DNA of 44,663 nt. Origin: Opitutales bacterium (GTDB taxonomy: Bacteria; Verrucomicrobiota; Verrucomicrobiia; Opitutales; Coraliomargaritaceae). A program made the position numbers and the translations under genes. Under the pieces are notes generated by a model. It saw only the letters and a list, made by a program, of their open reading frames with translations, was not told the origin of the DNA and did not search any database. Positions 15,093 through 30,363 of this stretch are shown here, piece after piece; positions within the stretch are counted from its first letter, which is position 1, and every line of letters begins with the position of its first letter. The stretch is from NCBI GenBank assembly GCA_018607135.1, contig JABBCA010000074.1:1-44663 (forward strand). Direction: 5' to 3'.

Positions 15093-16847
15093 TTAGCGAT
15101 AACTACGCCAAAGTTCGGCAAGCAGCTCACGATCCGCCTTCCGATCGGTGCGTAACTCCAACACCCGAATACCTTCGCTGGGCAATAATGCGATACGGTC
15201 TGTCAGTGTCTCCCAATCTTCGACAAGTTCATGTTCGATTGAATGAGCACTGCACAGCGTAGCAATATCCACGCTTTGCGGCGTCGCAAAGTAGTCCTCA
15301 AAAGTCTCTGACATCGAAGCCACTGGAAGGTGTTCAAAGATACCACCGCCATTGTTGTTGATTAACACAATGGTCAGACTGCCCTTCAATTGCTGCTTTA
15401 GCATCAGTGCGTTGCTATCGTGTAAAAATGCTAAATCCCCAGTAAGCAGCACTGCGGGTCGACCGCGATGCGCAACACCCAGCGCCGTGCCCAGCGTGCC
15501 ATCAATTCCATTCGCGCCGCGATTTGCAAATACCGAACACGCACGATTTCCCGCGCACCAGAAAAACTCCGCATAGCGGACACTCATACTACTCGCGATG
15601 AAGACCGAAGTGCCAACAGGCAGATGGTTCGACATGAGCCAAGCCGCTTTGCCTTCAAACAGTTCAGAAGTCTGCTCTAGTTTAGCATTCAATCGATACG
15701 CGGTTTTGTTTTCGACCTCCATCCATTGAGCCGTCCAATCGGGGTCCACGCGTTGATGCGGAACATGCTCTGCGAGAGTGTGTGCAGAGCCATGCATACA
15801 GGTCGCCACACGATGCAAAGGATCCGTATTAACGGGGCGATCCGACAATAAAAACGAAACCGCATCCAAGTCCCCGAGCCACTGTCGCAGCACTTTACTA
15901 GTTGGTAACGCGCCGATCTGTAAAACTGCGGTTGGCTTCAACGCTTCAACTGCGGAAGTATCTCGAAGGAAAGCGTCATAATGAGCCACCAAAGCTGGAT
16001 TCTCAAAAGCGTGCCCACGTAAGGGGTTCAACACATCGCAAAAAACAGGCCAGCCCAACTTCTGTGACAACATGGTCACTGCATCGGCGAACGACTCATC
16101 GCCGTCGCGAGGATTATGAGAACCGACCACAATCAAACCATGCTGATGACTCGACAGACGTTCCACGGCCACAGCATCAAAATTCGCTCCCACCGCAACC
16201 AATTCGCAAGGTCGTGTCGTGACCGTCGCCGCAGCCTCTAGTGCGGATTCAGAGATGAAACTCTCCCCTTCAACAGGAGCCAAAGGATCTCGAAATGGAA
16301 AATTCAATTGCACCGGCCCAGGGTTGTCGCCCAAAGAACGATTCACCGCATGCAGCAAAGTCTGACGTAAATACGCTAGCATTTCTGTAGAGGTCTCAGG
16401 CAGAGCGATTTCATAAAACGCCCGCACGTAATCTCCAAAGAGTTTGAACTGGTCAATCGTCTGCCCTGACGAACAGTCCCTCAATTCAGGTGGACGGTCC
16501 GCGGTCAAAACAATCAGCGGCGTGCCGCTCATGGACGCTTCAATTACCGCAGGATAATAATTGGCTGCAGCTGAGCCCGAAGTGCAGACCAATGCCACAG
16601 GCTTACGCGTGCGTTTAGCCAGCCCGAGCGCAAAGAAAGCCGCGGAGCGCTCATCCAATACCGAGATCGCCTCTAGCTTAGCATTTCGCGCAGCTGCAAT
16701 CGTCAACGGAGTCGATCGCGAGCCTGGCGACACCACAACGGTTTCGACACCCAAACGAGCGAGCACTTCCATCGTCAATGCGCCCCAAGCGGAATTTACA
16801 GAGGAACATGCCACTGCATCGAAAGTTTTCGTAGTCATATCAGCCAC
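15093..16847 (-). CDS. menD: 2-succinyl-5-enolpyruvyl-6-hydroxy-3-cyclohexene-1-carboxylate synthase
   Basis: This ThDP-dependent enzyme makes the first committed menaquinone intermediate from isochorismate and 2-oxoglutarate. VVVSPGSRSTPLTIAAARN and LDERSAAFFALGLAKRT (with the ThDP-activating Glu) mark the N-terminal domain. VLTADRPPELRDCSSGQTIDQ is diagnostic of MenD. The cofactor-binding region in the last third reads LTGDLAFLHDSNALML and then LINNNGGGIFEHLP. The length of 584 is normal. No other men genes are adjacent, so it is isolated from the pathway cluster. It is divergent from the GH1 gene and outside the sugar regulon. Confidence 0.95.
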   Translation of the reverse strand: MADMTTKTFDAVACSSVNSAWGALTMEVLARLGVETVVVSPGSRSTPLTIAAARNAKLEAISVLDERSAAFFALGLAKRTRKPVALVCTSGSAAANYYPAVIEASMSGTPLIVLTADRPPELRDCSSGQTIDQFKLFGDYVRAFYEIALPETSTEMLAYLRQTLLHAVNRSLGDNPGPVQLNFPFRDPLAPVEGESFISESALEAAATVTTRPCELVAVGANFDAVAVERLSSHQHGLIVVGSHNPRDGDESFADAVTMLSQKLGWPVFCDVLNPLRGHAFENPALVAHYDAFLRDTSAVEALKPTAVLQIGALPTSKVLRQWLGDLDAVSFLLSDRPVNTDPLHRVATCMHGSAHTLAEHVPHQRVDPDWTAQWMEVENKTAYRLNAKLEQTSELFEGKAAWLMSNHLPVGTSVFIASSMSVRYAEFFWCAGNRACSVFANRGANGIDGTLGTALGVAHRGRPAVLLTGDLAFLHDSNALMLKQQLKGSLTIVLINNNGGGIFEHLPVASMSETFEDYFATPQSVDIATLCSAHSIEHELVEDWETLTDRIALLPSEGIRVLELRTDRKADRELLAELWRSYR

Positions 16848-16913
16848 AAATCTAACGAAAGCCGAAATACACTGAAAGACAACTACCGAGTCAGCGAGTT
16901 AACCCGAACGCAA

Positions 16914-16927
16914 TGAAAATATTTACA
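16914..16927 (+). promoter_or_regulatory. Predicted LacI-family operator upstream of the GH1 gene
   Basis: TGAAAATATTTACA lies 35 bases before the GH1 start codon. It matches, in the same orientation relative to the gene, the sites before the 20255 gene and before the GH94 gene (sense pattern TGAAAA-NN-TTTACA). It is an imperfect palindrome of the LacI-family type. A second, perfect palindrome TGACGTCA directly follows (16929-16936), and GACGTCA recurs 22 bases on; the meaning of those is unknown. Confidence 0.72.
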
Positions 16928-16962
16928 TTGACGTCATACAGAGTCTTCTTAGACGTCAGAGG

Positions 16963-18303
16963 ATGCAAATTACTTGGGGAGCATCGACATCATCGTATCA
17001 AATTGAAGGCGCATGGAATCAAGACGGTAAAGGTCCATCCATATGGGATGCTTATTGTCGCGAAGAAGGAAACATACTCCATGGCGACAATGGAGACGTC
17101 GCTTGTGACCATTACAACCGATACGCTGAAGATGTAGGTCTGATGAAAGACATCGGGCTGCAAAGTTATCGATTCTCAATCTCTTGGCCACGAGTCATTC
17201 CAAAAGGCACGGGCACAATAAACGACAAGGGGCTCGAATTCTACGATAAACTCGTCGATACATTGCTCGCACAGGAAATCGACCCACTGATTACACTGTT
17301 TCACTGGGATTATCCACTCGCCCTCATCCACCGCGGTGGCTGGCTCAACCCTGACAGTCCTAAATGGTATGCCGACTATGTTTCAGTCGTCGTTGAAAGA
17401 CTCAGTGATCGAGTTACTAATTGGATTACGTTCAATGAGCCTCAAGTTTTCATTAACGAAGGTCACCTAAATGATTTCCATGCACCAGGCTTACAACTCA
17501 GCCTCAGCGATACCTTACGTGCTGGACATCATGTGCTACTCGCTCATGGACTGGGTTGCCAAGCGATTCGAGCGCACTCAAAACAAGTTGCGCGTATTGG
17601 CTGGGCCCCTGCAGGCAAAACGTGGGCACCAGCTAGCGATCAACCAGAAGACATCGAAGCCGCGCACGAAATGACTTTTGGAGTGCCGAACAAGGATCTG
17701 TTTAACGACCCATGGTGGAGCGATCCTGTTGTGCTTGGTCACTACCCTGAAGCAGGAATCCAACGCTATGGCAATGCAATGATCGATTTCAACCCAGAGG
17801 ACATGAAGACAATCTGCCAACCTCTTGATTTCTTCGCGATCAATCTCTATTTCTGTGAAAGCATGGCTAAAGCCAGCCCAACTGGACCAGAAACAATCCA
17901 ATACGATGGCAATATACCACGCACCATGATGGATTGGCCGATAACTCCGGAAGTTCTCTATTGGAGCACTAAATGGAACTATGAGCGCTATAAATTACCA
18001 ATGATTATCAGCGAAAATGGTCTCGCCTGTATGGATTGGGTGCAAGCCGACGGAGCGGTGCACGACACGCAACGCATCGACTTCTACGCTTCATATTTAA
18101 AAGAACTCAAACGAGCGAAAGACGAGGGCGTCGATATTACCGGCTACTATGCTTGGTCACTGATGGACAACTTCGAATGGAGCCAGGGCTACCGTCAACG
18201 CTTTGGCCTCATTCACGTTGATATGGACACTGGCAAGCGCACGCTTAAGGATTCCGCAAAATGGTATCGTAATCTCATCGCCACGCAAGGCGCGGAGCTC
18301 TAA
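16963..18303 (+). CDS. GH1 beta-glucosidase
   Basis: The protein is 446 residues and has the full GH1 set. WGASTSSYQIEGAWNQDGKG is at the N-terminus. The acid/base is Glu159 in ITFNEPQVF. The nucleophile is Glu351 in MIISENGLAC. YAWSLMDNFEWSQGYRQRFG is near the C-terminus. There is no signal peptide, so it is cytoplasmic. ATG 16963 is the only ATG that fits, although it trims the usual FPxxF lead-in. The family hydrolyses beta-glucosides. Given its neighbours, the likely substrate is sophorose or short beta-1,2-gluco-oligosaccharides, but GH1 specificity cannot be read from sequence. The symporter gene starts 17 bases after its stop. Confidence 0.93.
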   Translation: MQITWGASTSSYQIEGAWNQDGKGPSIWDAYCREEGNILHGDNGDVACDHYNRYAEDVGLMKDIGLQSYRFSISWPRVIPKGTGTINDKGLEFYDKLVDTLLAQEIDPLITLFHWDYPLALIHRGGWLNPDSPKWYADYVSVVVERLSDRVTNWITFNEPQVFINEGHLNDFHAPGLQLSLSDTLRAGHHVLLAHGLGCQAIRAHSKQVARIGWAPAGKTWAPASDQPEDIEAAHEMTFGVPNKDLFNDPWWSDPVVLGHYPEAGIQRYGNAMIDFNPEDMKTICQPLDFFAINLYFCESMAKASPTGPETIQYDGNIPRTMMDWPITPEVLYWSTKWNYERYKLPMIISENGLACMDWVQADGAVHDTQRIDFYASYLKELKRAKDEGVDITGYYAWSLMDNFEWSQGYRQRFGLIHVDMDTGKRTLKDSAKWYRNLIATQGAEL

Positions 18304-18320
18304 CCTACGCACCTCAAAAC

Positions 18321-20114
18321 ATGCCCCACCCACTCCATGCTCTAAATCCGCAAGATCGGATTTCTTTGCCTCGATTGATTGCATATGGCAGCGGGGGCAT
18401 CATTCCAATTGCGCTGTTCAACATTGCTGGCCAGCTCATGGGACTTATTGGAAATATAGGATTGGGGCTGAGCGCTTTTCTGCTGGGTATTATTATGATC
18501 ATCCCACGTTTGTGGGATGCCATTTCTGATCCATTAATGGGACACATCTCAGACAATACTCGAACACGCTTTGGCCGTCGCCGCCCCTTCCTATTGATAG
18601 GCGGCATTATAGTAGCAATCAGCTTTGTAGTGATGTGGTGGATACCAGATGGCGACCTAATCCGAAGTTGGTTCACCACTGAAACTTCTTACAATTGGTT
18701 TCAATTGAGCTACATCCTCTTCTGGCTTCTGGTCTTTTACACCGCCTGCACCATTTTTGAAATACCACACGGTGCGCTGGGCATGGAGATGTCGAACGAC
18801 CCGCATGAGCGCACGCGCCTGTTCAGCGCGAAGAGCTTTTTAGGCAATCTCTTCGCAATGGGCACGCCTTGGCTCTTCTTCTTGGCAAATTTGGAGGTCT
18901 TTCGGGGAATCGAGGGGAACGAGGCAGATGGTATGCGCTGGGTATCGATGATGATCGCGGCTGTGCTATTACCTTCATGCATTTGGTGGTTTTTCGCCTG
19001 CAAAGAACCCAATGCACACGCAACGCAAACTCGCAAAAAATCAAAGTTCTGGCACGACATAAAAATTACATTCAAAAATCGAACTTTCCTCATACTCGTC
19101 GGCATTTTCTTCATCCTCGGCATGGGCTTCAACTTTGTTGGCCTTCTCAACTACTACATCACGATATTTTATCTGTATGGTGGAGACAAAGTCGCCGCAG
19201 GCCCTTTACTCGGAATCAACGGGACCATTTGGGCGATCACCGGCTTACTCGCGGTCTTCCCTCTAAACTGGATGGGCAAGCGCTTCGGCAAACGTCAGAC
19301 TTTAATCATCTCGATTCTACTAATGTGCGCTGCTCAGCTTAGCAAGATCGCCTGTTACAACCCAGAATACCCCTACCTCGTCACCATACCGACTGTATTA
19401 CTATCCGCTGGAATGCTCATGTTTTTCACCCTTGGTCCCTCCATGTTAGGGGATATCTGCGACGAGGACGAACTCAACACGGGCACACGCTCAGAGGGCA
19501 GCTACTATTCGATCTATTGGTGGTTCTTCAAAATGGGCACCGCCTTTGCTAGTTTCGTCACTGGCAGCCTGATCGTGTTTACACAATTCGACGAGAAGCA
19601 GACCTCACACGTCGATGCCCTCAACGGCAGCATTGCAGTAATGGAGCAATCCGTGAACCTCTGGCTAACTGAGGGGTATGATACTGACCAGCGCGATCGC
19701 GAATTCGAGAAACTTCTAAACGCCACCCAGGCTCACACCGCAAGACTACGCACGCACTTCATGGAACGTATGCAACAACACCCCCAGAATGAAATGCACA
19801 TAAACCACCTTGTTACCAAACTAGATACTCTCGAACGCTCAGTAAAGTCTCTACAAAACAACACACTCAAAGCGGTCGACGCTCCCAGCGAACTGTTACA
19901 AAAACTCACTTCAGTTAAAGCAGGCACGGCAGGTCTCACTCAGCAAAAGCCAAGCACACTACTCATGCTGCGCATTATAGAAATCGGCCTACCACTCATG
20001 CTTAGCATCTTTTCAATCCTACTGACGCTTCGCTACCCTCTGACTGAAGCGCGCTGCTATGAGATCAAAAACACACTCGAACAACGCAGACTACAAACTG
20101 AACAAGAGCCTTAA
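18321..20114 (+). CDS. GPH-family (MFS) sugar:cation symporter with large insertion near the C-terminus
   Basis: Of 597 residues, the first 420 or so carry eleven hydrophobic segments, and a last one is at about 550-570. WDAISDPLMGHISDNTRTRFGR at about residue 70 is the family signature of glycoside-pentoside-hexuronide symporters (the D-P-x-x-G region and basic loop). Typical members are 450-480 residues. Here a soluble stretch of about 125 residues (about 422-548), rich in charged residues and partly coiled-coil-like (for example LVTKLDTLERSVKSLQNN), separates the last two helices. It is co-transcribed with GH1. The inferred role is import of sophoro-oligosaccharides released by the GH144 enzyme. 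Confidence 0.85.
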   Translation: MPHPLHALNPQDRISLPRLIAYGSGGIIPIALFNIAGQLMGLIGNIGLGLSAFLLGIIMIIPRLWDAISDPLMGHISDNTRTRFGRRRPFLLIGGIIVAISFVVMWWIPDGDLIRSWFTTETSYNWFQLSYILFWLLVFYTACTIFEIPHGALGMEMSNDPHERTRLFSAKSFLGNLFAMGTPWLFFLANLEVFRGIEGNEADGMRWVSMMIAAVLLPSCIWWFFACKEPNAHATQTRKKSKFWHDIKITFKNRTFLILVGIFFILGMGFNFVGLLNYYITIFYLYGGDKVAAGPLLGINGTIWAITGLLAVFPLNWMGKRFGKRQTLIISILLMCAAQLSKIACYNPEYPYLVTIPTVLLSAGMLMFFTLGPSMLGDICDEDELNTGTRSEGSYYSIYWWFFKMGTAFASFVTGSLIVFTQFDEKQTSHVDALNGSIAVMEQSVNLWLTEGYDTDQRDREFEKLLNATQAHTARLRTHFMERMQQHPQNEMHINHLVTKLDTLERSVKSLQNNTLKAVDAPSELLQKLTSVKAGTAGLTQQKPSTLLMLRIIEIGLPLMLSIFSILLTLRYPLTEARCYEIKNTLEQRRLQTEQEP

Positions 20115-20194
20115 CTACAAAATCGCTGAAAAAGCACATAAAGACCTCAATAAATAGTTGACTCCTACAAACAAAGGTGTTCGGTTACACTAAA

Positions 20195-20208
20195 TGAAAA
20201 CATTTACA
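20195..20208 (+). promoter_or_regulatory. Predicted LacI-family operator upstream of the secreted-protein gene 20255
   Basis: TGAAAACATTTACA is the same 14-bp site as before GH1 and GH94. It is followed after 3 bases by TATAAC (20212-20217), a fair -10 box. The operator would then fill the spacer of the promoter, a position that suits repression. The -35 match is weak. The site marks a second transcription start inside the locus. Confidence 0.7.
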
Positions 20209-20254
20209 TTTTATAACTGCTAAAATCAATCTGTTATTTACCCCCCCAGAAACC

Positions 20255-20932
20255 ATGCGCCTCCATACAACATTAATAGCAAGGGCCCTCGCAGTCTCAT
20301 TTTTGGCTGCCTGCAATTCAACATGTGCAGCCGCTGAAGAAGCTACAGGTGAAATGATCGCCAATCCATATTTTGACAATGCTAGCTATGAGCATTGGAC
20401 TTTTTCAGGCAAATGGCGCCCAGACGGTGTTCAGCAGAGAATCGTCTTTGACATAACTGAAAGTAACGTAGGATTCCCAGCTGCTGTAGGCCGCAGCCTG
20501 CACCTCACACTAGATACACAACAGGCTAACCATTCAGCGAATCCGTCGGCCAAGTTAACCCGCTTAACAGCAAACAGACCCTACATATCAGTTTACAACG
20601 CCTCTGCGATTGGTCCCAGCGCCGACTATACACTATATTTCGAAATCGACGTCATTACCCAATCGGGCACTCACCGTGCCAAGAGCCAAGAAATCCAAAA
20701 ACCTTGGGCGCTACCAGAGGGCGACTTAGCACTCGAATTTCACTGGCTGCGAGATCGAAAATTTCTCGGAGACCTTCAATCGACTGGACGAGGCGGCGTT
20801 CCCCTCGAGTCCATAAAAGAAATCTACTACAAGGCAGTCATGCAGGTTACTCGCCCTACGGACCCAGGAACTGAGACTGTCTTTGTCACCTTGGACAACA
20901 TGTCACTCACCTATCTAGTCGAAATTGAATGA
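20255..20932 (+). CDS. Secreted protein of unknown function in the sugar regulon
   Basis: I do not recognise the family. The 225-residue product has an N-terminal signal sequence (LIARALAVSFLAACNSTCAAAEE, cleavage likely after CAAA). After it comes a single, probably beta-rich domain: EMIANPYFDNASYEHWTF resembles the opening of carbohydrate-binding jelly-roll modules, and VFVTLDNMSLTYLVEIE closes it. No catalytic motif is seen. A predicted LacI operator lies 46 bases upstream of the start. The gene is followed by the PEP-CTERM gene and the GH144 gene on the same strand. A role as a surface glucan-binding protein is a guess from context. Confidence 0.7.
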   Translation: MRLHTTLIARALAVSFLAACNSTCAAAEEATGEMIANPYFDNASYEHWTFSGKWRPDGVQQRIVFDITESNVGFPAAVGRSLHLTLDTQQANHSANPSAKLTRLTANRPYISVYNASAIGPSADYTLYFEIDVITQSGTHRAKSQEIQKPWALPEGDLALEFHWLRDRKFLGDLQSTGRGGVPLESIKEIYYKAVMQVTRPTDPGTETVFVTLDNMSLTYLVEIE

Positions 20933-21046
20933 ACACTACTCTTTGCGCTGGAAACAAACATCCAAGCCAACTTCACCCAGCCCCCCTTGCTTACATCTTA
21001 ACGGGACTCCAACGACACTCCAACCCACCACAAATAAAATACAAAA

Positions 21047-21691
21047 ATGAACTCAATACACAAACTACTCATAACCGCCGCCACAGCATCAATGCTGTCA
21101 GCTCTAAGCGCAAACGCGCAAAACTTGCTCGTCGATAACACTTTCGATACGAATGCCTCAATTGCCAGCTGGACTGGCATATCAGATGGATTCGACGCCG
21201 ATTACAATGTAACAAACTTTTTTCGCTTCGACTTTGATCGTATCACGACGGACCCTTGGATTGCTGATAACAATTTTTCATTTGTGAGCCAAGATGTGAG
21301 TGGTTTCACTGGCGACCAAAGTTACGACTCTACCGTCAGTTTGTTCTACAACACCACAATTACGGCTGGCAGCTACGACATCTTTGCTAAGTTTGTCTTT
21401 CTAGACGCATCAGATATCTCCCTTGGAGAATTTGAAGCGACCCACGACAACACTATTACAAGCACAGGTGCTGGTTTTATCACTCTCTACGATGGCAACT
21501 TTGTAACACCTACGAATACTGCTAAAATCAGTGTGCTCTTTTTTGCCAACGAAGTTGAAGCAGATCAAATTTTACAACTAGATGCCTTCAGTTTCACTGC
21601 TTCCGCAGTTCCGGAACCGAGCGCATATGCACTACTCGCTGGTATCCTCGGCCTCGGCTATGTAATGACGGCTCGCCGGCGTAAGGCCTAA
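21047..21691 (+). CDS. PEP-CTERM sorting-signal protein
   Basis: The protein is 214 residues with a Sec signal peptide (LLITAATASMLSALSANAQ). It ends in the PEP-CTERM tail: VPEPSAYALLAGILGLGY, then basic ARRRKA. Such tails direct export and processing by an exosortase. The body is beta-rich; NLLVDNTFDTNASIASWTG resembles the start of the neighbouring 20255 protein (a jelly-roll opening 'N..FD..S...W'). It may be a carbohydrate-binding exported protein. A good intrinsic terminator follows 37 bases after the stop. Confidence 0.88.
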   Translation: MNSIHKLLITAATASMLSALSANAQNLLVDNTFDTNASIASWTGISDGFDADYNVTNFFRFDFDRITTDPWIADNNFSFVSQDVSGFTGDQSYDSTVSLFYNTTITAGSYDIFAKFVFLDASDISLGEFEATHDNTITSTGAGFITLYDGNFVTPTNTAKISVLFFANEVEADQILQLDAFSFTASAVPEPSAYALLAGILGLGYVMTARRRKA

Positions 21692-21728
21692 AACCCAGCC
21701 AAGCGTCCACGTAAACCGAACGTATTTG

Positions 21729-21766
21729 GGCACCACGCCTGCGTGAGCGAGTGTGGTGCCTTTTTT
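21729..21766 (+). terminator. Intrinsic terminator between the PEP-CTERM and GH144 genes
   Basis: GGCACCAC at 21729-21736 pairs perfectly with GTGGTGCC at 21753-21760 and is followed by six T residues. The loop can form a further small CACGC/GCGTG hairpin. It separates the PEP-CTERM gene from the GH144 gene. The GTG at 21743 lies inside this hairpin, which supports the later ATG as the GH144 start. Confidence 0.83.
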
Positions 21767-21787
21767 ATAGCACTAGACCTAAATACC

Positions 21788-23410
21788 ATGAACACCTCCT
21801 ACCTTCAGTTTTTGAAGCAGTCCTTACCCAAAGCTGCGTCTATACTTGCCGCGACATTCATTTTTTTAAGTTCGAGCGGATCCACTGCCTTTTCAGCAGA
21901 TGGTAGCAACATCGTAAATCTAGAGGCGCTCCCACGCATGTTACGTATTGATTTGATGTGGGAACCGGCGGCTAAGGCCCGTAATTATGAAGTGCAGCGA
22001 AGTTCTTCGGCACATGGACCATTTCAGACTTTAAACAATCCATTACCGACGCTCTTTCTCTTTACCGATTACATTGGCGAGCCGGATAAGGTGTATTACT
22101 ACAGAGTGCGTGTGGATGAAGGTGAATGGTCAGACACAGTCACAGCGACGACGCAGCCATATGACCGAGATGGCTTTTTGACCGAAGTGCAGGAAGCTGG
22201 CTTTCGCTACTTCTACAACTTCGCACACCCAACTAGCCACCTACCCCGCGAAGGCATCAAAGCCAAGGACTCTTGGACAATGGATACGATATCTGGTGTG
22301 AGCACGGGCATGTATTTCTTCAACATGGCAATGGGCGTGGAACGTGGCTTTGTAACACGTAAAGACGCAGTTCAACACATTGCCGTGGCACTCAAGTTTC
22401 TAACAAGAGACACTGATCGTTTCCACGGCGCATTCCCACATTGGATTCACGGTGAAAGCGGAAAAGTTATCCCCTTTTCAAGCACGGACAATGGCGCTGA
22501 TATGGTTGAAACAGCGATACTTGCTAAAGGCCTACTCTTTGCTCGCGAATATTTTGATGAAACTAATCAACAAGAAGCATTCATACGGAGAACAGCAGAC
22601 AATCTATGGAGAACGATTGAATGGAACAAGTTCATCCACAACGATGCGATGGCTTGGCATTGGTCACCCAATTACGGTTTTGGTAATTTACCAATCGTCG
22701 GTTTCAATGAGGCGGAGATCGCCTACATACTCGGTGTCGGTTCACCCACCTACTCGATTAGTCCAGAAACTTACTGGAATGGCTGGGTTGGTAAAAACGC
22801 AAACTATTTCAACCCTCGTATGGTTGCTGGTGAAAACGGCACCATTCACCTACAACTGGGCCATGACTATGGTTTGCCGATGTTTTTGATGCATTATTCA
22901 TACATGGGTCTCGACCCTAGACAAGTGCCCATGCCAGATGGCAATCTCTTTGAAGAATTTGAGCGACTGACTCTAGCGAACCATGACTACTGCACACTCA
23001 ACGCAGGGCGTTTTGCTGGTTACGATAAATTCTGGGGCTTAACCGCAAGTCTAGATCCAGACGGCTACAAGGCTCATGAACCGATGCATGTGGATAATGG
23101 CACTATATCACCCACTGGCGCACTGGCATCAATGCCGTATCAACCCGAACTCGTCATGGAGATGATGGAAACCATGTATCTTCAATATGGCGAAATGCTC
23201 TGGGGACCTTTCGGTTTTTATGATGCTTTCAATTTCAGCCGCAACTGGGTAGCCTATGGTTACATCGGAATCGATGTAGGTCCGATTGGACCGATGATCG
23301 AGAACTACAGGACCGGAATTTTATGGCAGACTTTTATGAAAGCACCTGAAGTGAATACAGCTATCAAAGAAATCTGGACGCATCCCAACGCTAGCATACT
23401 AGCCGAATAA
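21788..23410 (+). CDS. Secreted GH144-type glycoamylase-domain protein, candidate endo-beta-1,2-glucanase
   Basis: From ATG 21788 the protein is 540 residues. A signal peptide (about residues 12-36, ending TAFSA) is followed by a fibronectin-III-like domain (about 40-125, with YEVQRSSSAHGPF and YYYRVRVDEGEWSDTV). The rest (about 130-535) is the glycoamylase fold (PF10091): MDTISGVSTGMYFFNM, GAFPHWIHGESGKVIPFS, DNGADMVETAILAKGLL, and WHWSPNYGF. Characterised members of this fold in GH144 are endo-beta-1,2-glucanases. It acts outside the cytoplasm. It is downstream of the 20255 and PEP-CTERM genes, after a terminator. The exact specificity is inferred; the family name 'glucoamylase' in databases is misleading. 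Confidence 0.86.
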   Translation: MNTSYLQFLKQSLPKAASILAATFIFLSSSGSTAFSADGSNIVNLEALPRMLRIDLMWEPAAKARNYEVQRSSSAHGPFQTLNNPLPTLFLFTDYIGEPDKVYYYRVRVDEGEWSDTVTATTQPYDRDGFLTEVQEAGFRYFYNFAHPTSHLPREGIKAKDSWTMDTISGVSTGMYFFNMAMGVERGFVTRKDAVQHIAVALKFLTRDTDRFHGAFPHWIHGESGKVIPFSSTDNGADMVETAILAKGLLFAREYFDETNQQEAFIRRTADNLWRTIEWNKFIHNDAMAWHWSPNYGFGNLPIVGFNEAEIAYILGVGSPTYSISPETYWNGWVGKNANYFNPRMVAGENGTIHLQLGHDYGLPMFLMHYSYMGLDPRQVPMPDGNLFEEFERLTLANHDYCTLNAGRFAGYDKFWGLTASLDPDGYKAHEPMHVDNGTISPTGALASMPYQPELVMEMMETMYLQYGEMLWGPFGFYDAFNFSRNWVAYGYIGIDVGPIGPMIENYRTGILWQTFMKAPEVNTAIKEIWTHPNASILAE

Positions 23411-23519
23411 GCGTCACCGCTTCCTTTTACAATTCCCCTTCGCGCAGCCTGAGATGTTTTCAAGCAGACTCCCCACCCCCAATATACCCAACCGAATAGC
23501 CCTCACCCAATATCCCTAT

Positions 23520-23773
23520 ATGAAAAATCTACTAAAAACAAAATACCCTCACACCACGAAATTTATCATTTTATTAGCGCTTACATGCCAAGGCGCGACC
23601 CGAGCTTTTACAATGAATGCCTCTGAGTGGTTTATCCCGGATGGAGAGCAAACTCAGTGCAAGGTGTCGATGACTCATCAATGTCATTCGGCCTAGCAAG
23701 TCTGTCTCAGCATTAAGGAAACGCTTTCTTCTGGAACTACAACAATTTCGATATTCCTGATTTTAATAACTGA
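23520..23773 (+). pseudogene. Decayed gene for a small secreted protein
   Basis: ATG 23520 opens a frame that encodes a normal signal peptide (FIILLALTCQGATRAF) and then MNASEWFIPDGEQTQ, after which it runs into non-protein-like residues and a stop at 23694. In another frame from about 23657 the text continues sensibly: VQGVDDSSMSFGLASLSQH, a TAA at 23714, and then in the same frame GNAFFWNYNNFDIPDFNN to a stop at 23771. One frameshift and one nonsense codon explain this. It may be the front end of a larger lost secreted protein. The alternative is a short real gene ending at 23696. It lies in the 435-base gap after the GH144 gene. Confidence 0.42.
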
Positions 23774-23845
23774 TGATCTGCTAATGCGGTGCGCTCTTGT
23801 CATCAAACCTATTGCGTGTATTCTCAGTAAGCAACTTATTAGGCC

Positions 23846-24643
23846 ATGAACACAACCTCAAATACATCTTGCTCCGTATTTAATCGTGGACACTCACGCA
23901 ATGGATTTACTCTCATCGAACTACTCGTTGTGATTGCAATCATAGCCATCCTCTCGGCTATTCTCGTGCCGGCAATTAATATGTCACGCCAGTCGGCATT
24001 GAGTGCGAAAAGCGTGTCAAACTTACGCCAAATTGGAGTGGCCATGTTCGCTCGCGCCTCAGATAATAATGGTCGCTTTCCGATCACGTTTGGACCACAG
24101 ATCCAAAATGGACCCAATCTACTATGGAGCCACGAGGTAGCCCCTTACATTAGCGGCAGCGATCAAGCTCCGAGTGGAGTGTCCGCATTAGGCTTAGTCG
24201 AAAGCTTGTGGCCAATTTTCATCTCACCTACAACGATTGCGCCAGGAGAGATTAATAAGTCCGCCCCCTATTTGGATTCAACCTATTCAATGAATGGTAA
24301 TTTAAATGAAATCGCGACTCTGGATGATACCAGTATCAGCCGGGGGTTGCCCACCATCAGAGTGGACAACCCAGCTCAGACGGTTCTACTCGTCGATGGA
24401 GGTCAGTGGGCCATAGGATCGCAGGCAGATGCCAGCCTCTACAGTGTGTATCAAGAAACTAAAAACAGCACGACTCCAGATGCGTCCGTATCGACGACCT
24501 CTCCCGATGGAAATGGTCTGTATGGGCACGGAACAGTCTCGTATCGTGATCAGGGTCGTGCCGCTACCTTGTGGTGCGATGGACACGTCTCACATGTTGA
24601 AAAAGGGGAATTTAAGCACAAACATTTCGCCATCAATTTTTAA
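23846..24643 (+). CDS. Prepilin-like protein (type II pseudopilin N-terminus, DG-type C-terminus)
   Basis: The 265-residue protein has a short basic leader, and a prepilin peptidase site in [19 protein letters not shown] with Glu at position +5, followed by the hydrophobic helix. The rest is a globular domain with [21 protein letters not shown] and a C-terminal [11 protein letters not shown]. This resembles the H-X9-DG 'prepilin-type processing-associated' family that is much expanded in Planctomycetes and Verrucomicrobia. It is presumably exported to the cell envelope. Its role is unknown. It follows the GH144 gene on the same strand but has no operator of its own, so regulon membership is uncertain. 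Confidence 0.88.
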
Positions 24644-25097
24644 ACGCGTTGCAACAAGCTCAATCAACAGCAAGCGTGCGAGCGATACAAAGATAATTAG
24701 CAGAGCCACAATTCCGAGCTGCGAATGACTAGAAAAGTAATCACGCAACCTTTGTGAGAGCTACATTACTGGCTATCTTTGACAACAGATACGACGATTT
24801 GTTTCGCTGACAAACCTAGTCTTTCACGGCATGTCTTATGACATTCGTTGACCTTCTCTGATGGAATGGGGCTGAACGATCGTAAGCGGTGTGGACCTCA
24901 GGTGGGCGATGATAAACGCAAATACTGGCTGTCCTAGATTTGTAGTTATCTATGAAACCACAATATGCGGTTGAACATATTACCCGTTTTAGTTGCAAGA
25001 TGACGTGCACACTTCATACGACAAACCGCCGCACGCGCAGAATTTTAAGCCAGTAGTTCTTCATCAAACACGAACAGTAATACCTGCGCGCGGGTCT
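24644..25097. other. 454-base intergenic region without recognisable gene
   Basis: This lies between the convergent prepilin-like and GH94 genes. I see no conserved frame, RNA gene, operator of the TGTAAA-NN-TTTWCA type or convincing terminator hairpin. The only longer frame (24816-25010, minus strand) has a composition unlike protein. It may contain worn-out sequence from a lost gene. Confidence 0.5.
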
Positions 25098-28000
25098 TTA
25101 AAGTTGAACCACCAAGCGATCTCCAAACATCATAGCATCGCGTAATTGTGCCTTTGACACAATAAGGCCACCATCTCGATAAGGATTTTCTTCGCGAACC
25201 GTTTCAAGGAGGCAGCCAGCACAGAGGATTGCTTTAGGACCATACTCACGCTCAAGCACCCGGAATTCAATTTCAACACGCTGGCCAGACAGCTCCCATG
25301 TAAGCACAATGCCATCTAACTTCTTAGGTAATACGGGATCAAAAACCCATGCGTCTGACTGCTCACGCAATCCAAACAATTGCCGGATCACTAAACCTGA
25401 ATACAAACCAGGACCACTCGAATAGAGACGCCAACCGCCTTTAGCTTCAACCGACCCGTCACGTAATTTATCAAAGTTTTCGGCCGCATCATAGCGGTCT
25501 AGAAACCCTGCATCAGAACTGCTAAAATACATATTGCTTTGACGAATGCCTGCATTCGAAAACGTCTTTTCAATACTAATAGGACAAATCGTCAAAAGCG
25601 CTTCAAAGAACTCTGAACCATTGCCCAGCTTCGCCAAAGCCTCCGCATATCTTATGTGCGCATGCACATACTGCAGTCCAATTTCACGTCCTATATTTGC
25701 AGATGATTCCGCACGCTTAAAAAAGGTTTCGATCCCACCTTGGTAAGGAGCCGGGCGATCCATCAAGCGCACGCCATCAGGAAACTTCAAGTTCGCCGCA
25801 ATACGCGACATTTGATGCTCCGCTTCATCGCGAGTAAGCAGGCCCGCAATGATCGAGCGTGTCATTGGGATCAAGCGATTCGCAATTCCAGTCCGTGTAT
25901 CTTTAGGATGTAAAAGTGGCTCCGCGGTCTCGAACGAGTCATCAAAAAGTAGAAAGCCTGCAACTTGACCGTCGATGAAAACACGCTCCCTAAAATCTTT
26001 TTTTACCGCGCCTGCCATCTGCCCAACACGTTCACGAAGTTCTAAATACTTCACGTCACACATACCTGCGTGCAACTCAGCAAGAGACTGAGCCAGTAGT
26101 CCTACAGTCCAACCACTGACCAAACGACTCGCTAGGTCAGCACTCACTGGCTGTAGTGAATCATCCCAATCTCCCCCACCATAGCGGATCAAAGACGTGC
26201 CAGGAACAAATTCACTTTCGATACGGTCCAGAGTTCGCACCACGTGTCCGGCTAAACATTCGGCTTCGTTCGTCAAAGAGTTGTCAGCGTTCAAGTAAGG
26301 AAGCTCCAGATCGAAAATCGAAAAATCGCCAGTCGCATCCAAATACATCGCTAAAGCTTTTAAAGGCCACACAACGATATCGCCGTGTGAATGATTCTGC
26401 GCGATATCACAATACTCATCGTGCATGAACCACTGAGGCCAATCTCCCGTATCCACATACTGGCTACTAAAGGTCTTTAACAAAATACTTTTCGCCAAGC
26501 CGTGATGTTGCTGCGCAATGAAATATTCGAAGGGCCCCTGACAGGCATCACGCGTGCCCCAAGCTGCTCCAGAATACTGCTCCAAACCATGCGGTGATGC
26601 ATAGTGAATCAATGCATTGTGTGAATACCAACGAAGCGCATCACTCAATCGAACAATTGAATCATCTTCATAAGCACAATCCAGGCCGCGATTGAATATT
26701 TCCCAGAAATCCGCACCATTTGTCTTGGTGGTTGCAGAAAGCTTTTTAACCACATCGGCAGCCCCTTCTAAGGATGCAGCAAAATTAAACTCAATTTTTT
26801 GTGTTGGATGAGTGACCACGACAAAGAGCGCGTCTTCGCCACTTCCGCCCAATAGCTCTGAGCCACCGATTTCTGAAAGTTCGGTTCCATCCCCACAGGA
26901 CATCCCAAATGAGAGATCGATGGAGCGCTCATGAGACAATTTATCACCATTTTTTTCGAATAAGATAAACCGACCGTCGTCCGAAACTTCTACCGTCGCA
27001 TCGACTGCATCCTCAGCTGCCCCCATTACCAACTCATTACTCAATAAGAAACGGCTTGCTTTCAGATTACTCTCCAAAGCAACCGTCAAACGATCACGAT
27101 CAGTGTCAATTGAAACATCGACCGTAATACTGCCGCCTTCTAGAACATAAATCCATCGATACGCGTCACGTTTCATTTCAAAGGCCGAAGGTGTTCCCAA
27201 CAGGCACCAGCCACCTTTCATCTCTATATAAATCCTCAGACCTGACATTCGCGATAGCCCCAGAGGCTCGCGCGGTAGGGAATTCATTTTATGGAATGAT
27301 GTGTTACCATAAACAGTCTGAGCAGAAAACACACCATACATGTAGACCGTAGTGGCTAGCACTTCGCGTATAGATTCAGTGCCAGCATTGCCAACCAAGA
27401 TACTACCGTGTGGACGTTCGACAAGACGTTCTTTAGCTCTCGTCACCACATGCGTATCCCCATCACAGAAAAATCCAAGAATTCCATCATTACGCTTTTC
27501 AATATGCCGCCACTTTAGCGGATATAAGTCCTGAAGCTCAGCGGTTGTTAAATCACGACCATGGACGCCCATTGCACTTTCAACGCAGTTTCGTGCGAGC
27601 GGCTTGGCATCTTTGAAATCATCTGCTACTGGCGATAGAAGCGCACGCAATGTAGTTAACACGCTTAGATCTGATTCAGAAGACGCCTCTGGGTGATGGC
27701 TCACATAAGTTAATCCAAAGATCACTTCAGTCGATGCACCGACTGCTAGTTCACATGGCTTGGACTGCAGTGCCGCGCAACTAAACTCAAATTGATAACG
27801 ACGATTCGATAGCTGTGGCTGCATTAAACCCTTTGGCTCTTCACCACAGCGGTAGCCATTCCCATACACATCAAATGCGTCAGTGGCATAACTCTCGGCT
27901 CCGGACAAACAACTCGCTAACACCCAAGGAAACTGACCTTCGACTTGTTTTAAATTCTGCCTAAAACACAAAACTGGCCCAGCGGATACGTCCTGATAAA

Positions 28001-28484
28001 CTGATTCATCTAAGTAATGAGCGGTATAGGCCTCATTACTTTGCAAAGCACTCTTTCCAGCACAACCAATGTCTTGCACCCAAACAACATCAAAGCACCC
28101 CGCCTTGTCACTGTCATTCTTTATGGCTACTGACCACACGAGTGAGGATGCATCCGAATCGACGCTCAGAGTTAAATCGATGCTCAGCCCTACAACATCT
28201 CCACTCCATCGAACTTTAGAGCCTGATACGGTAAAATCACTAAGTTTGCAATTTGGCCCCATGATACAGTGTAGAGCGACCCCCTGTCTGGTGTGCTCGC
28301 GCAAATAGATCCTCGATAGCGCTCCTTCCAAGACATTGCCCACAGTGCGCCCCACTAATATTTCCCCAGCAACTATCGATAGCAAACGGCCAGAATCACC
28401 AAGTGTGACACCAAATTTGCTGGCATCGCCAAGCGTCAACATCGAGTCATTTTGAGAGGTAAAAATCATTTTTTGAGTTAACAT
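25098..28484 (-). CDS. GH94 glycoside phosphorylase, candidate 1,2-beta-oligoglucan phosphorylase
   Basis: The 1128-residue protein has no signal peptide, so it is cytoplasmic. The C-terminal (alpha/alpha)6 region carries AWGTRDACQGPFEYF (Asp646), TGDWPQWFMHDEY and HSHGDIVVWPLKAL. GGGDWDDSLQP follows near Asp772, the position of the general acid in GH94. The length and these motifs fit 1,2-beta-oligoglucan phosphorylases (about 1,080-1,130 residues) better than cellobiose or laminaribiose phosphorylases (about 800). They exclude full cyclic beta-1,2-glucan synthases, which are much longer and membrane-bound. The reaction would be sophoro-oligosaccharide plus phosphate to alpha-glucose 1-phosphate. 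AAGGAGGG abuts the ATG, an unusually tight spacing. lacI lies 66 bases upstream. Confidence 0.85.
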   Translation of the reverse strand: MLTQKMIFTSQNDSMLTLGDASKFGVTLGDSGRLLSIVAGEILVGRTVGNVLEGALSRIYLREHTRQGVALHCIMGPNCKLSDFTVSGSKVRWSGDVVGLSIDLTLSVDSDASSLVWSVAIKNDSDKAGCFDVVWVQDIGCAGKSALQSNEAYTAHYLDESVYQDVSAGPVLCFRQNLKQVEGQFPWVLASCLSGAESYATDAFDVYGNGYRCGEEPKGLMQPQLSNRRYQFEFSCAALQSKPCELAVGASTEVIFGLTYVSHHPEASSESDLSVLTTLRALLSPVADDFKDAKPLARNCVESAMGVHGRDLTTAELQDLYPLKWRHIEKRNDGILGFFCDGDTHVVTRAKERLVERPHGSILVGNAGTESIREVLATTVYMYGVFSAQTVYGNTSFHKMNSLPREPLGLSRMSGLRIYIEMKGGWCLLGTPSAFEMKRDAYRWIYVLEGGSITVDVSIDTDRDRLTVALESNLKASRFLLSNELVMGAAEDAVDATVEVSDDGRFILFEKNGDKLSHERSIDLSFGMSCGDGTELSEIGGSELLGGSGEDALFVVVTHPTQKIEFNFAASLEGAADVVKKLSATTKTNGADFWEIFNRGLDCAYEDDSIVRLSDALRWYSHNALIHYASPHGLEQYSGAAWGTRDACQGPFEYFIAQQHHGLAKSILLKTFSSQYVDTGDWPQWFMHDEYCDIAQNHSHGDIVVWPLKALAMYLDATGDFSIFDLELPYLNADNSLTNEAECLAGHVVRTLDRIESEFVPGTSLIRYGGGDWDDSLQPVSADLASRLVSGWTVGLLAQSLAELHAGMCDVKYLELRERVGQMAGAVKKDFRERVFIDGQVAGFLLFDDSFETAEPLLHPKDTRTGIANRLIPMTRSIIAGLLTRDEAEHQMSRIAANLKFPDGVRLMDRPAPYQGGIETFFKRAESSANIGREIGLQYVHAHIRYAEALAKLGNGSEFFEALLTICPISIEKTFSNAGIRQSNMYFSSSDAGFLDRYDAAENFDKLRDGSVEAKGGWRLYSSGPGLYSGLVIRQLFGLREQSDAWVFDPVLPKKLDGIVLTWELSGQRVEIEFRVLEREYGPKAILCAGCLLETVREENPYRDGGLIVSKAQLRDAMMFGDRLVVQL

Positions 28485-28493
28485 CCCTCCTTA

Positions 28494-28507
28494 TGTAAAC
28501 ATTTTCA
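28494..28507 (-). promoter_or_regulatory. Predicted LacI-family operator upstream of the GH94 gene
   Basis: Read in the direction of the gene, the site is TGAAAATGTTTACA, the same pattern as the GH1 and 20255 sites. It ends 9 bases before the ATG and directly abuts the ribosome-binding sequence, so bound repressor would block transcription near the start. A TGTAAA half-site follows on the plus strand at 28514-28519. Confidence 0.72.
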
Positions 28508-28550
28508 TTTTTATGTAAAGAGAAATTAACGAGATTACAATTGAGCTTAA

Positions 28551-29603
28551 TCAAGAACTTAATACAGAGGTAGACTCTCTAATATTTAGAACAGCTTCCA
28601 AGTCATCATGCACGTAGGCTAAGGATGGATCATCCACTGACAAAGCCAACAGCTCAACTGCACGACGTGTTAGTGTTCCCAGAGGCTGACGTATCGTTGT
28701 CAACTTTGGAGAGCATGCTACGGCCCATGGGCCATCATCAAATCCTATTATGGAAATATCCTTGGGACACGAAACGCCTCGATCTTTTGCGAAATCGAGT
28801 GCACCAAATGCAATATTATCACTGGCACAGATCAATGCAGTCGGCACCTGCTTCATGGACAAAAAATGCTCACAACCAGCGCGACCAGTCTCTTGATCAT
28901 AAGAGCCCTTGTAGACCATTTCCTCTCTCACTTCAATTCCCGCCGCTTGTAGGCCATGAGCGTAACCACGTGAACGCTCTGAGAAATCTCGAGACTCATC
29001 TGGTCCCAGTATCAAGCCAATATGCTGATGCCCCAACTCCGCAATATACTTTGCAGCAGCAACCGCGCCGCTATAATTATCCACTCCTAAGACGTGGCAT
29101 TTTACAGTCTCACGTGGATAACTCGCAGGAAGCACGGAACTCATCAATATGAGTGGACTATGGTAATTTGATAAAGAATTCACTTCATCGGCCGTTAATG
29201 GCAAACCTGCATAAATCAAGCCAGAGCTACCTAAACCCACACGGCGTAACTCATCGACAATACTGCCCGCATCTCCTTTAAGTGCATTAATACGGACTTC
29301 CCAGTCGCTATCCTTAGTGGCCTGAATCATGCCGCCAGTAAAGCGACCATAAAACTCTGAGAAGAACACGTCTTCTTGACCAGGTATCAATACTCCTATC
29401 GTCGGATTAATCCCTTTTTGAATCAAGCGAGCTCCCGGATTTGGGCGATAGCGCATTTTATCGGCAAGCTCTAATATCTCTGAACGGCGAGCTTCTTTCA
29501 CCAAGTGAGAGGTATCAGGGTTCAATGCTCTTGAAATCGTTGCGATCGAGACACCAAGCTCTTGAGCCATCAAGCGAATACCGCTAAGTTTTTTGCCTTC
29601 CAT
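28551..29603 (-). CDS. LacI-family transcriptional regulator of the glucan locus
   Basis: From ATG 29603 the protein is 350 residues. The N-terminal helix-turn-helix is IRLMAQELGVSIATISRALN, and the hinge region follows with KMRYRPNPGARLIQKG. A periplasmic-binding-protein-like effector domain comes next: IGVLIPGQEDVFFSEFYGR, HIGLILGPDESRDFSERSRG, ALICASDNIAFGAL and ISIIGFDDG. The ATG 75 bases upstream is rejected because it lies before the predicted promoter and operator. It is transcribed toward the GH94 gene 66 bases downstream. The ligand is presumably a beta-1,2-gluco-oligosaccharide or a product of its breakdown. The four shared 14-bp sites in the locus, including one at its own promoter, are its likely targets. 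Confidence 0.92.
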   Translation of the reverse strand: MEGKKLSGIRLMAQELGVSIATISRALNPDTSHLVKEARRSEILELADKMRYRPNPGARLIQKGINPTIGVLIPGQEDVFFSEFYGRFTGGMIQATKDSDWEVRINALKGDAGSIVDELRRVGLGSSGLIYAGLPLTADEVNSLSNYHSPLILMSSVLPASYPRETVKCHVLGVDNYSGAVAAAKYIAELGHQHIGLILGPDESRDFSERSRGYAHGLQAAGIEVREEMVYKGSYDQETGRAGCEHFLSMKQVPTALICASDNIAFGALDFAKDRGVSCPKDISIIGFDDGPWAVACSPKLTTIRQPLGTLTRRAVELLALSVDDPSLAYVHDDLEAVLNIRESTSVLSS

Positions 29604-29622
29604 AATTATGGAATAGCAAAGA

Positions 29623-29650
29623 TCTATAGTGTAACTCTGTAAACTGTAAA
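29623..29650 (-). promoter_or_regulatory. Predicted lacI promoter (-35 TTTACA, -10 TATAGA)
   Basis: On the minus strand TTTACA (29645-29650) and TATAGA (29623-29628) are separated by 16 bases, close to sigma-70 consensus. The -35 box is half of the operator palindrome, so the regulator would block its own transcription. Transcription would begin about 13 bases before ATG 29603. Confidence 0.5.
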
Positions 29651-29658
29651 ACTTTACA
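29645..29658 (-). promoter_or_regulatory. Predicted autoregulatory operator of the LacI-family gene
   Basis: TGTAAAACTTTACA is the most symmetric of the four related sites; the symmetry extends to 18 bases (29643-29660). It overlaps the predicted -35 box of the lacI promoter and lies 42 bases from the start codon. An extra TGTAAA half-site sits beside it at 29638-29643. Confidence 0.7.
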
Positions 29659-29805
29659 GTGTAAGTATAACAATTCATGAGCCTGATTTAAACCAAGACA
29701 CTAACCAAAACTTACTTTAGTGCTCAGCTTTGCGAACTTGCCAAGCTTGACACTCACTCCGAGCGCTGGCAAATCGATCTGTTTCAACCTCAATTCCACT
29801 TAAAT

Positions 29806-30363
29806 ATGGCATCACCTACAAACGTTCGTAAGGGCAAAGTTCTTAACTATCAAAACGCGCCACACCTCGTGCTCGATGTGCAACACCGCACACAAGGTCG
29901 TCAAGCCGGCTTTATGCAGGTGACCATGCGTAACCTCAACTCGGGCGCGAGCACCAACACGAAGATTCGCACCACTGATTCGGTTGAAATCATGCACACC
30001 GATATGGTGAAGTTAGAGTTCAGCTATGTGGACGGTCAAGAATACCACTTCATGGAACCAGAAACCTTCGAAGACATCATCCTTGATGCGTCGCTCGTCG
30101 AAGACGCGAAGGACTTCCTAGTGGAAACACAAGTTTACAGTATCCTCCACGTGGATGATCGACCGATTTCAATTGAGCTCCCCGCTTCCATCGAAATGAA
30201 AGTCATCGAGTCTGCTGAAGGCGTGAAAGGTGACACCGCGAGCAACGTGCAAAAACCAGCCACACTCGAAACAGGGCTCACCATTCAAGTCCCCCTCTTC
30301 ATTAAAGAAGGCGATGTGCTCAAAGTCGGCACCGCAGACAAGTCCTACATGGGACGTGCCTAA
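29806..30363 (+). CDS. efp: Translation elongation factor P
   Basis: The protein is 185 residues with the KOW-like N-terminal domain (VRKGKVLNYQNAPHLVLDV) and two OB domains ending in GLTIQVPLFIKEGDVLKVGT. EF-P rescues ribosomes stalled on polyproline. The tip of the beta3-beta4 loop reads RTQGRQAGF. Residue 32 is Arg, the position that is lysine (beta-lysylated) in Escherichia coli and arginine (rhamnosylated by EarP) in Pseudomonas. It is a single gene, divergent from lacI and convergent with the cytochrome gene, 14 bases away. Confidence 0.95.
   Translation: MASPTNVRKGKVLNYQNAPHLVLDVQHRTQGRQAGFMQVTMRNLNSGASTNTKIRTTDSVEIMHTDMVKLEFSYVDGQEYHFMEPETFEDIILDASLVEDAKDFLVETQVYSILHVDDRPISIELPASIEMKVIESAEGVKGDTASNVQKPATLETGLTIQVPLFIKEGDVLKVGTADKSYMGRA

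Follow-up and report, generated by a model that had tools for sequence, protein, structure and literature searches.

A secreted orphan protein behind an operator-like palindrome in the beta-1,2-glucan locus of an Opitutales bacterium

Among GH1 enzymes, a beta-glucosidase that acts on sophoro-oligosaccharides has been described, as has an ABC-transporter subunit that binds beta-1,2-glucan oligosaccharides (PMC12369401). In another account, Groups 1 to 3 of beta-1,2-glucanases are assigned to GH192, GH193 and GH194 in that order, and PgSGL3, of Group 3, is an anomer-inverting enzyme with D148 and E214 as reported catalytic residues, whose mutants lost nearly all activity (PMC12102758). For a dedicated stand-alone module that binds beta-1,2-glucan, a limited literature search over partly available sources returned no example.

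The locus described here lies in a stretch of 44,663 nucleotides, referred to below as the window, from an Opitutales bacterium. On the plus strand, the order of genes is a GH1 glycosidase, a transporter of the MFS_2 type, an orphan gene, a PEP-CTERM protein and a GH144 enzyme, while the minus strand carries an SOGP phosphorylase and a LacI-family regulator. The GH1 protein (16963-18303; PF00232, E 1e-144) is presumably a beta-glucosidase and has no signal peptide by eye, and it is followed by the MFS sugar transporter (18321-20114; PF13347, E 6e-73). The 214-residue PEP-CTERM protein (21047-21691) passes TIGR02595 with 18.1 bits against a cut-off of 16, whereas its PF07589 match (E 0.002) lies below the cut-off. 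The GH144 gene (21743-23410, with an inferred start at 21788; PF10091, 211 bits) encodes a predicted endo-beta-1,2-glucanase with a signal peptide by eye, similar to the characterised endo-beta-1,2-glucanase of PDB 5gzh/5gzk (E 2.2e-94). On the opposite strand, the SOGP-type 1,2-beta-oligoglucan phosphorylase (25098-28484; PF21958, E 3.8e-59; PF21250, E 2.2e-47) and the LacI-family protein (28551-29678; PF13377, E 3.6e-29; PF00356, E 2.3e-06), the presumed reader of the operator, complete the set. The gene at 23846-24643, after GH144, encodes a protein whose N-methylation motif is like that of type IV pilins, and an Rfam scan over 16800-30000 returned nothing above threshold.

The orphan gene and its operator

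The orphan gene (20255-20932, plus strand) encodes an apparently secreted protein, possibly a lipoprotein, of the 225 residues given in a preliminary description of this DNA, and its reading frame is well founded. It is the only stop-free frame of the six, with 11-14 stops in each of the other five, and it has the best codon-usage fit among them (0.008 per codon against -0.034 to -0.094); the score is positive, yet the lowest among 23 genes compared. At 46 bp upstream of the gene stands a LacI-type palindrome of 16 bp, ATGAAAACATTTACAT (20194-20209), so that the gene does have its own copy of the glucan operator, as had been proposed. By contrast, the proposal that the operator overlaps a predicted promoter failed, since a sigma-70 scan of 20110-20255 gives no plus-strand site, the sole one listed being on the minus strand (20237-20208).

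Pattern scans of the window and of the assembly place further copies ahead of GH1 (16913-16928) and ahead of SOGP (28493-28508). With up to three mismatches, the operator gives five strand-matches at three places in the window, whereas 100 shuffles average 0.59 and never exceed 4. A search of the 3,530,185-base assembly with the degenerate form ATGWAAAYRTTTWCAT returns four sites, and the pattern read backwards returns none; three of the four are those of the beta-1,2-glucan locus (GH1, orphan and SOGP) and one lies elsewhere before a PgSGL3 homologue, so each precedes either a gene of beta-1,2-glucan type or the orphan gene. Exact matches occur in 8 of 197 loci, all from the source genome, and the remaining 189 have none. 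Because the operator is rare and all four sites are tied to glucan genes or to the orphan, the latter very probably belongs to a LacI-type beta-1,2-glucan regulon.

The fourth site (C85:60323; 1501-1516 in locus L008) falls at the 5' end of a 464-codon frame opened by TTG, approximately 55 bp before the ATG taken as the real start of the PgSGL3 homologue. This frame (L008 1484-2878, the same as L046 9907-11301, on contig C85 of the source genome) matches PDB 8xuk, which is H744_1c0222, PgSGL3, with E 1e-58, and an Asp and a Glu of it align with D148 and E214 in that alignment, a 20-residue offset having been counted by hand. Its similarity to PgSGL3 and the retention of both catalytic acids mark it as a predicted GH194-type enzyme. 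Since this enzyme was reached only by way of the operator, no other finding speaks as strongly for the operator as a marker of beta-1,2-glucan genes. Its surroundings include a GH94 catalytic protein, a TonB receptor and a sulfatase with CBM96 upstream, and an IS200-like transposase downstream.

The orphan gene had also been described as the head of a unit that ends in GH144. This description needs qualifying, as a terminator-like hairpin with a T-run (21728-21766, plus strand) stands between the PEP-CTERM gene and GH144. It has an 11-bp outer stem, and the fold of 21700-21770 reaches -27.2 kcal/mol (z -3.3), a stability matched by one of 200 shuffles; the scan used for promoter-like sites did not list it, probably owing to the interrupted stem. 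Transcription from the orphan gene would thus reach GH144 only by read-through, and there may be less of the enzyme than of the small exported proteins.

The encoded protein and its relatives

The signal peptide assigned to the product earlier is borne out by eye, its N-terminus, MRLHTTLIARALAVSFLAACNSTCAAAEEA, resembling an export signal. A lipobox-like LAAC is present at residues 17-20, and no cysteine occurs beyond residue 25, but a PROSITE-like lipoprotein pattern does not match the protein; an outer-membrane lipoprotein is therefore possible but uncertain. Sequence searches agree with the earlier finding of no recognised domain, with zero matches in Pfam up to E 10, in NCBIfam up to E 1 and in PDB up to E 10.

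The opening of the protein had been likened to that of a carbohydrate-binding jelly roll, and by eye both the N-terminus NPYFDNASYEHWTFSG and the C-terminus VFVTLDNMSLTYL resemble the ends of CBM-type jelly rolls. Against a CBM_4_9 class HMM built from 24 domains of class genomes (24 of 30 returned loci, six partial matches being left out), the orphan scores 8.9 bits, a value attained by 3 of 5000 shuffles. The signal comes from residues 26-60 (9.5 bits), which also contain the motif from which the hypothesis arose, while the part after residue 55 gives only 2.8. With hhalign, the CBM_4_9 score is 23.8 (19 columns, probability 12%) compared with 22.05 for the top of 300 shuffles and 17.56 for the best of the 16 PEP-CTERM proteins of the genome. 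However, 25 of 4060 frames from GH144 loci reach 8.9 bits, among them a SpoIIAA-like protein at 9.0, and the curated PF02018 cut-off is not reached by the orphan. A profile of Planctomycete jelly-roll-like proteins encoded near GH144 gives -0.7 bits, as high as in 1262 of 5000 shuffles. A carbohydrate-binding jelly roll is thus possible but weakly supported: few shuffled sequences reach the score, but Pfam is silent and an unrelated protein attains it as well. With models that are not confident either, the orphan is not filed in CBM_4_9.

Structure prediction, one of the checks suggested for this reading, yielded no confident model. AlphaFold2 reached pLDDT 34 on the orphan alone and pLDDT 48 when given aligned CBM-like domains of GH144 loci, an input that presumes homology. 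Both models consist mostly of strands with one short helix, but at such low confidence they give no secure fold, and Foldseek returned no match at E 0.001 or better. The beta sandwiches to which they point are different, MATH domains in one case and furin, CBM22 and others in the other, so no fold is claimed. For the second model, VIA-align lists CBM28, CBM15 and CBM22 at Z 6.3-7.2 among many beta sandwiches, with a BcsB domain also matched within Z 6.3-7.9; the best match, a virus coat protein at Z 8.1, is in the range that the tool gives as typical without a clear match. These matches say no more than beta sandwich.

Relatives were sought at several depths, in samples that overlap. At E 0.01 or better, the class sample yielded 4 of 286 genomes, including the source genome (the other three at E 0.0015-0.009), and the order sample 1 of 372, the source genome itself. 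The family sample at E up to 10 gave 7 of 43 genomes, the source genome and six others, none of these with E below 0.096, and the phylum sample at E up to 0.05 gave 6 of 387, the source genome included. Apart from the orphan itself, every match in these samples was partial and had an E above 0.001, and the two same-genus genomes searched had no match. When seven weak matches (L002, L003, L004 and L068-L071; the family matches L009-L015 were left out) were realigned, E-values went down to 6e-6, but in a very small database. L003 and L068-L071 were rejected as relatives because each alignment covers a short part of a longer frame of a different kind, two of these frames having been read, and L002 and L004, judged by score, are matches that contain stops. 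Scans of genome and viral contig collections, sensitive to close relatives only, returned no credible relative, and a plasmid collection returned none. Among 4060 stop-to-stop frames of at least 100 residues from 100 GH144 loci, one duplicate pair included (L072 = L048), the best phmmer E was 0.41. By these comparisons, the protein has no credible relative in the sampled genomes, the GH144 loci or the collection scans, and the suggested survey of co-occurrence with GH144 had no homologues to draw on.

GH144 itself, searched at E 1e-20, was found in 40 of 384 genomes of the class, and among the genomes listed it is missing from one of the same genus and eight of the same family, so that the beta-1,2-glucan locus looks patchy in the source family. 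The closest GH144 (63%, G248:C8) sits in another family, with no orphan-like neighbour. Given this distribution, the source locus may have been acquired.

Proposed role and alternatives

To explain the gene, the four operator-like sites and the enzyme families, all of which were established by computation, we infer repression, binding, localisation and an expression ratio as follows. In the absence of glucan fragments, the LacI protein would occupy the palindrome at 20194-20209 and block transcription; an intracellular sophoro-oligosaccharide or a derivative would free it, as is inferred from the LacI family. The orphan product would then be exported and might end up as an outer-membrane lipoprotein. 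As a beta-sandwich protein without catalytic activity, it would keep beta-1,2-glucan close to the cell, for the secreted GH144 and for the GH194-type enzyme encoded elsewhere in the genome. Fragments would enter via the MFS transporter, and GH1 and the SOGP phosphorylase would break them down. Because of the hairpin that follows the PEP-CTERM gene, GH144 would be made in smaller amounts than the two small exported proteins. For the orphan, the most likely role is that of a stand-alone surface protein that binds glucan within a LacI-type regulon, tentatively and at somewhat less than an even chance. Rather doubtful is the fuller proposal that it founds a new family of stand-alone surface beta-1,2-glucan-binding proteins, produced in terminator-set excess over GH144 as the binding half of a LacI-controlled system. 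The failure to find a homologue leaves the conservation of binding residues unreadable and counts against glucan binding.

Other readings must be weighed against the same evidence. The next gene encodes a PEP-CTERM protein that resembles other such proteins of the source genome, where 16 proteins match PEP-CTERM with E no higher than 1 and 13 of them pass the cut-off. The orphan could thus belong to the secreted matrix or envelope proteins of exosortase/PEP-CTERM type, forming with this neighbour a surface layer or a biofilm component that retains secreted enzymes, without itself binding glucan. The two proteins had been said to begin similarly, and an N-terminal BLASTP alignment does exist, but it covers only 47 residues at 32% identity with E 0.10, a weak likeness. 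Moreover, Pfam and NCBIfam find no PEP-CTERM sorting signal at the orphan C-terminus, comparison with the 16 PEP-CTERM proteins shows no clear similarity (best E 0.08 in that set), and control by a glucan operator would still need a reason; we regard this reading as unlikely, if worth serious attention. The missing relatives, in same-genus genomes and in the other samples alike, together with the lowest though positive codon score, would suit a young or fast-evolving lineage-specific gene that has little or no glucan function and is transcribed since it happens to lie behind an operator. An intact frame of 225 codons with an export signal by eye, preceded by an operator copy of its own, argues against such an origin, which appears distinctly improbable.

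Substituted periplasmic glucans occur in nature, and no obvious de-substituting enzyme was seen among the nine locus proteins scanned. It is conceivable, then, that the orphan, which contains acidic and aromatic residues, is a small new catalytic beta-sandwich protein, for example a glucan-modifying enzyme that strips a substituent from beta-1,2-glucan. Of the readings considered, we give this one the least credence: the protein matches no enzyme family in Pfam, NCBIfam or PDB, and without homologues to compare, a conserved set of catalytic residues cannot be recognised.

If the orphan does bind beta-1,2-glucan, it would offer a handle on how the polymer is retained by a bacterium with no SusD-type receptor evident at its locus, as well as a reagent for detecting the polymer. 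Regardless of binding, one operator-like sequence connects GH144, SOGP, GH1 and a GH194-type enzyme in a regulon of four sites, which makes the orphan gene directly testable within an otherwise interpretable beta-1,2-glucan regulon.

Comparison with known systems

The Streptomyces griseus cluster, with GH1 (SGR_2426) and GH193, resembles the source locus in combining GH1, an endo-beta-1,2-glucanase family and a transporter (PMC12369401). It differs in having an ABC transporter with a sophoro-oligosaccharide-binding subunit where the source locus has an MFS protein; the words LacI and operator are absent from the text of that account, and no counterpart of the orphan was found in the part available. 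Surface glycan-binding proteins of the SusD/SGBP type are lipoproteins encoded beside a SusC/SusD pair, whereas the transporter adjoining the orphan is of the MFS type, and no match to a SusC/SusD pair was obtained among the nine locus proteins scanned. By eye, the orphan resembles CBM_4_9 domains (PF02018) in an N..F[ED]...W start and a D[DN].SL end, and like them it is apparently exported and has its place beside glycoside hydrolases. In contrast, the orphan is stand-alone rather than fused to an enzyme and has approximately 200 residues compared with 136 profile positions.

Exported candidates also occur at GH144 loci of other lineages. In Planctomycetota, ORFs of 226-381 residues in L091 and L113 have an NLL..xFE-like start, lie 2.5-4 kb from GH144 and bear PEP-CTERM or, by eye, dockerin-like tails; unlike the orphan, they form a family of their own, whose profile the orphan misses. 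This jelly-roll-like family, some of whose members carry PEP-CTERM or dockerin-like tails, is represented at L091 9582-11871, L113 14878-16308, L128 15124-17208 and L131 3829-5763, approximately 2.5-4.3 kb from GH144. Its profile also matches, at 23-30 bits, divergent minus-strand frames of about 905-969 residues that adjoin GH144 in four class genomes (L061 6010-8724, L063 6222-9065, L064 3487-6288 and L065 5935-8841) and have no Pfam family over the cut-off.

Over 99 GH144 loci (L072 dropped as the duplicate of L048; GH144 ORFs and ORFs under 150 residues excluded), CBM_4_9-like ORFs with 11 bits or more account for 11 of 173 within 1 kb of GH144, 5 of 287 at 1-4 kb and 4 of 431 beyond. Ten of the 11 near ORFs come from Saprospiria, where they follow GH144 on the same strand at a distance of 0.3-0.5 kb; being confined to one lineage, they may represent one event. 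They belong to L095, L098, L099, L102, L117, L122, L125, L129, L135 and L141 and have approximately 900-1200 residues. Three were scanned with Pfam: the PF02018 cut-off is reached in L099 and L135, and a Por tail is present in L117, L099 and L135. These tandem CBM_4_9-like proteins are candidate beta-1,2-glucan-binding proteins, apparently better conserved than the orphan. Those of L099, L117 and L135 differ from it in length, in several repeats seen by eye, in the Por tail and in having no sequence similarity to it, but like the orphan they are separate, secreted, apparently non-catalytic and placed beside GH144. Thus, the existence of exported, separate jelly-roll-like proteins beside GH144, while no proof, raises the prior for a glucan-binding role of the orphan.
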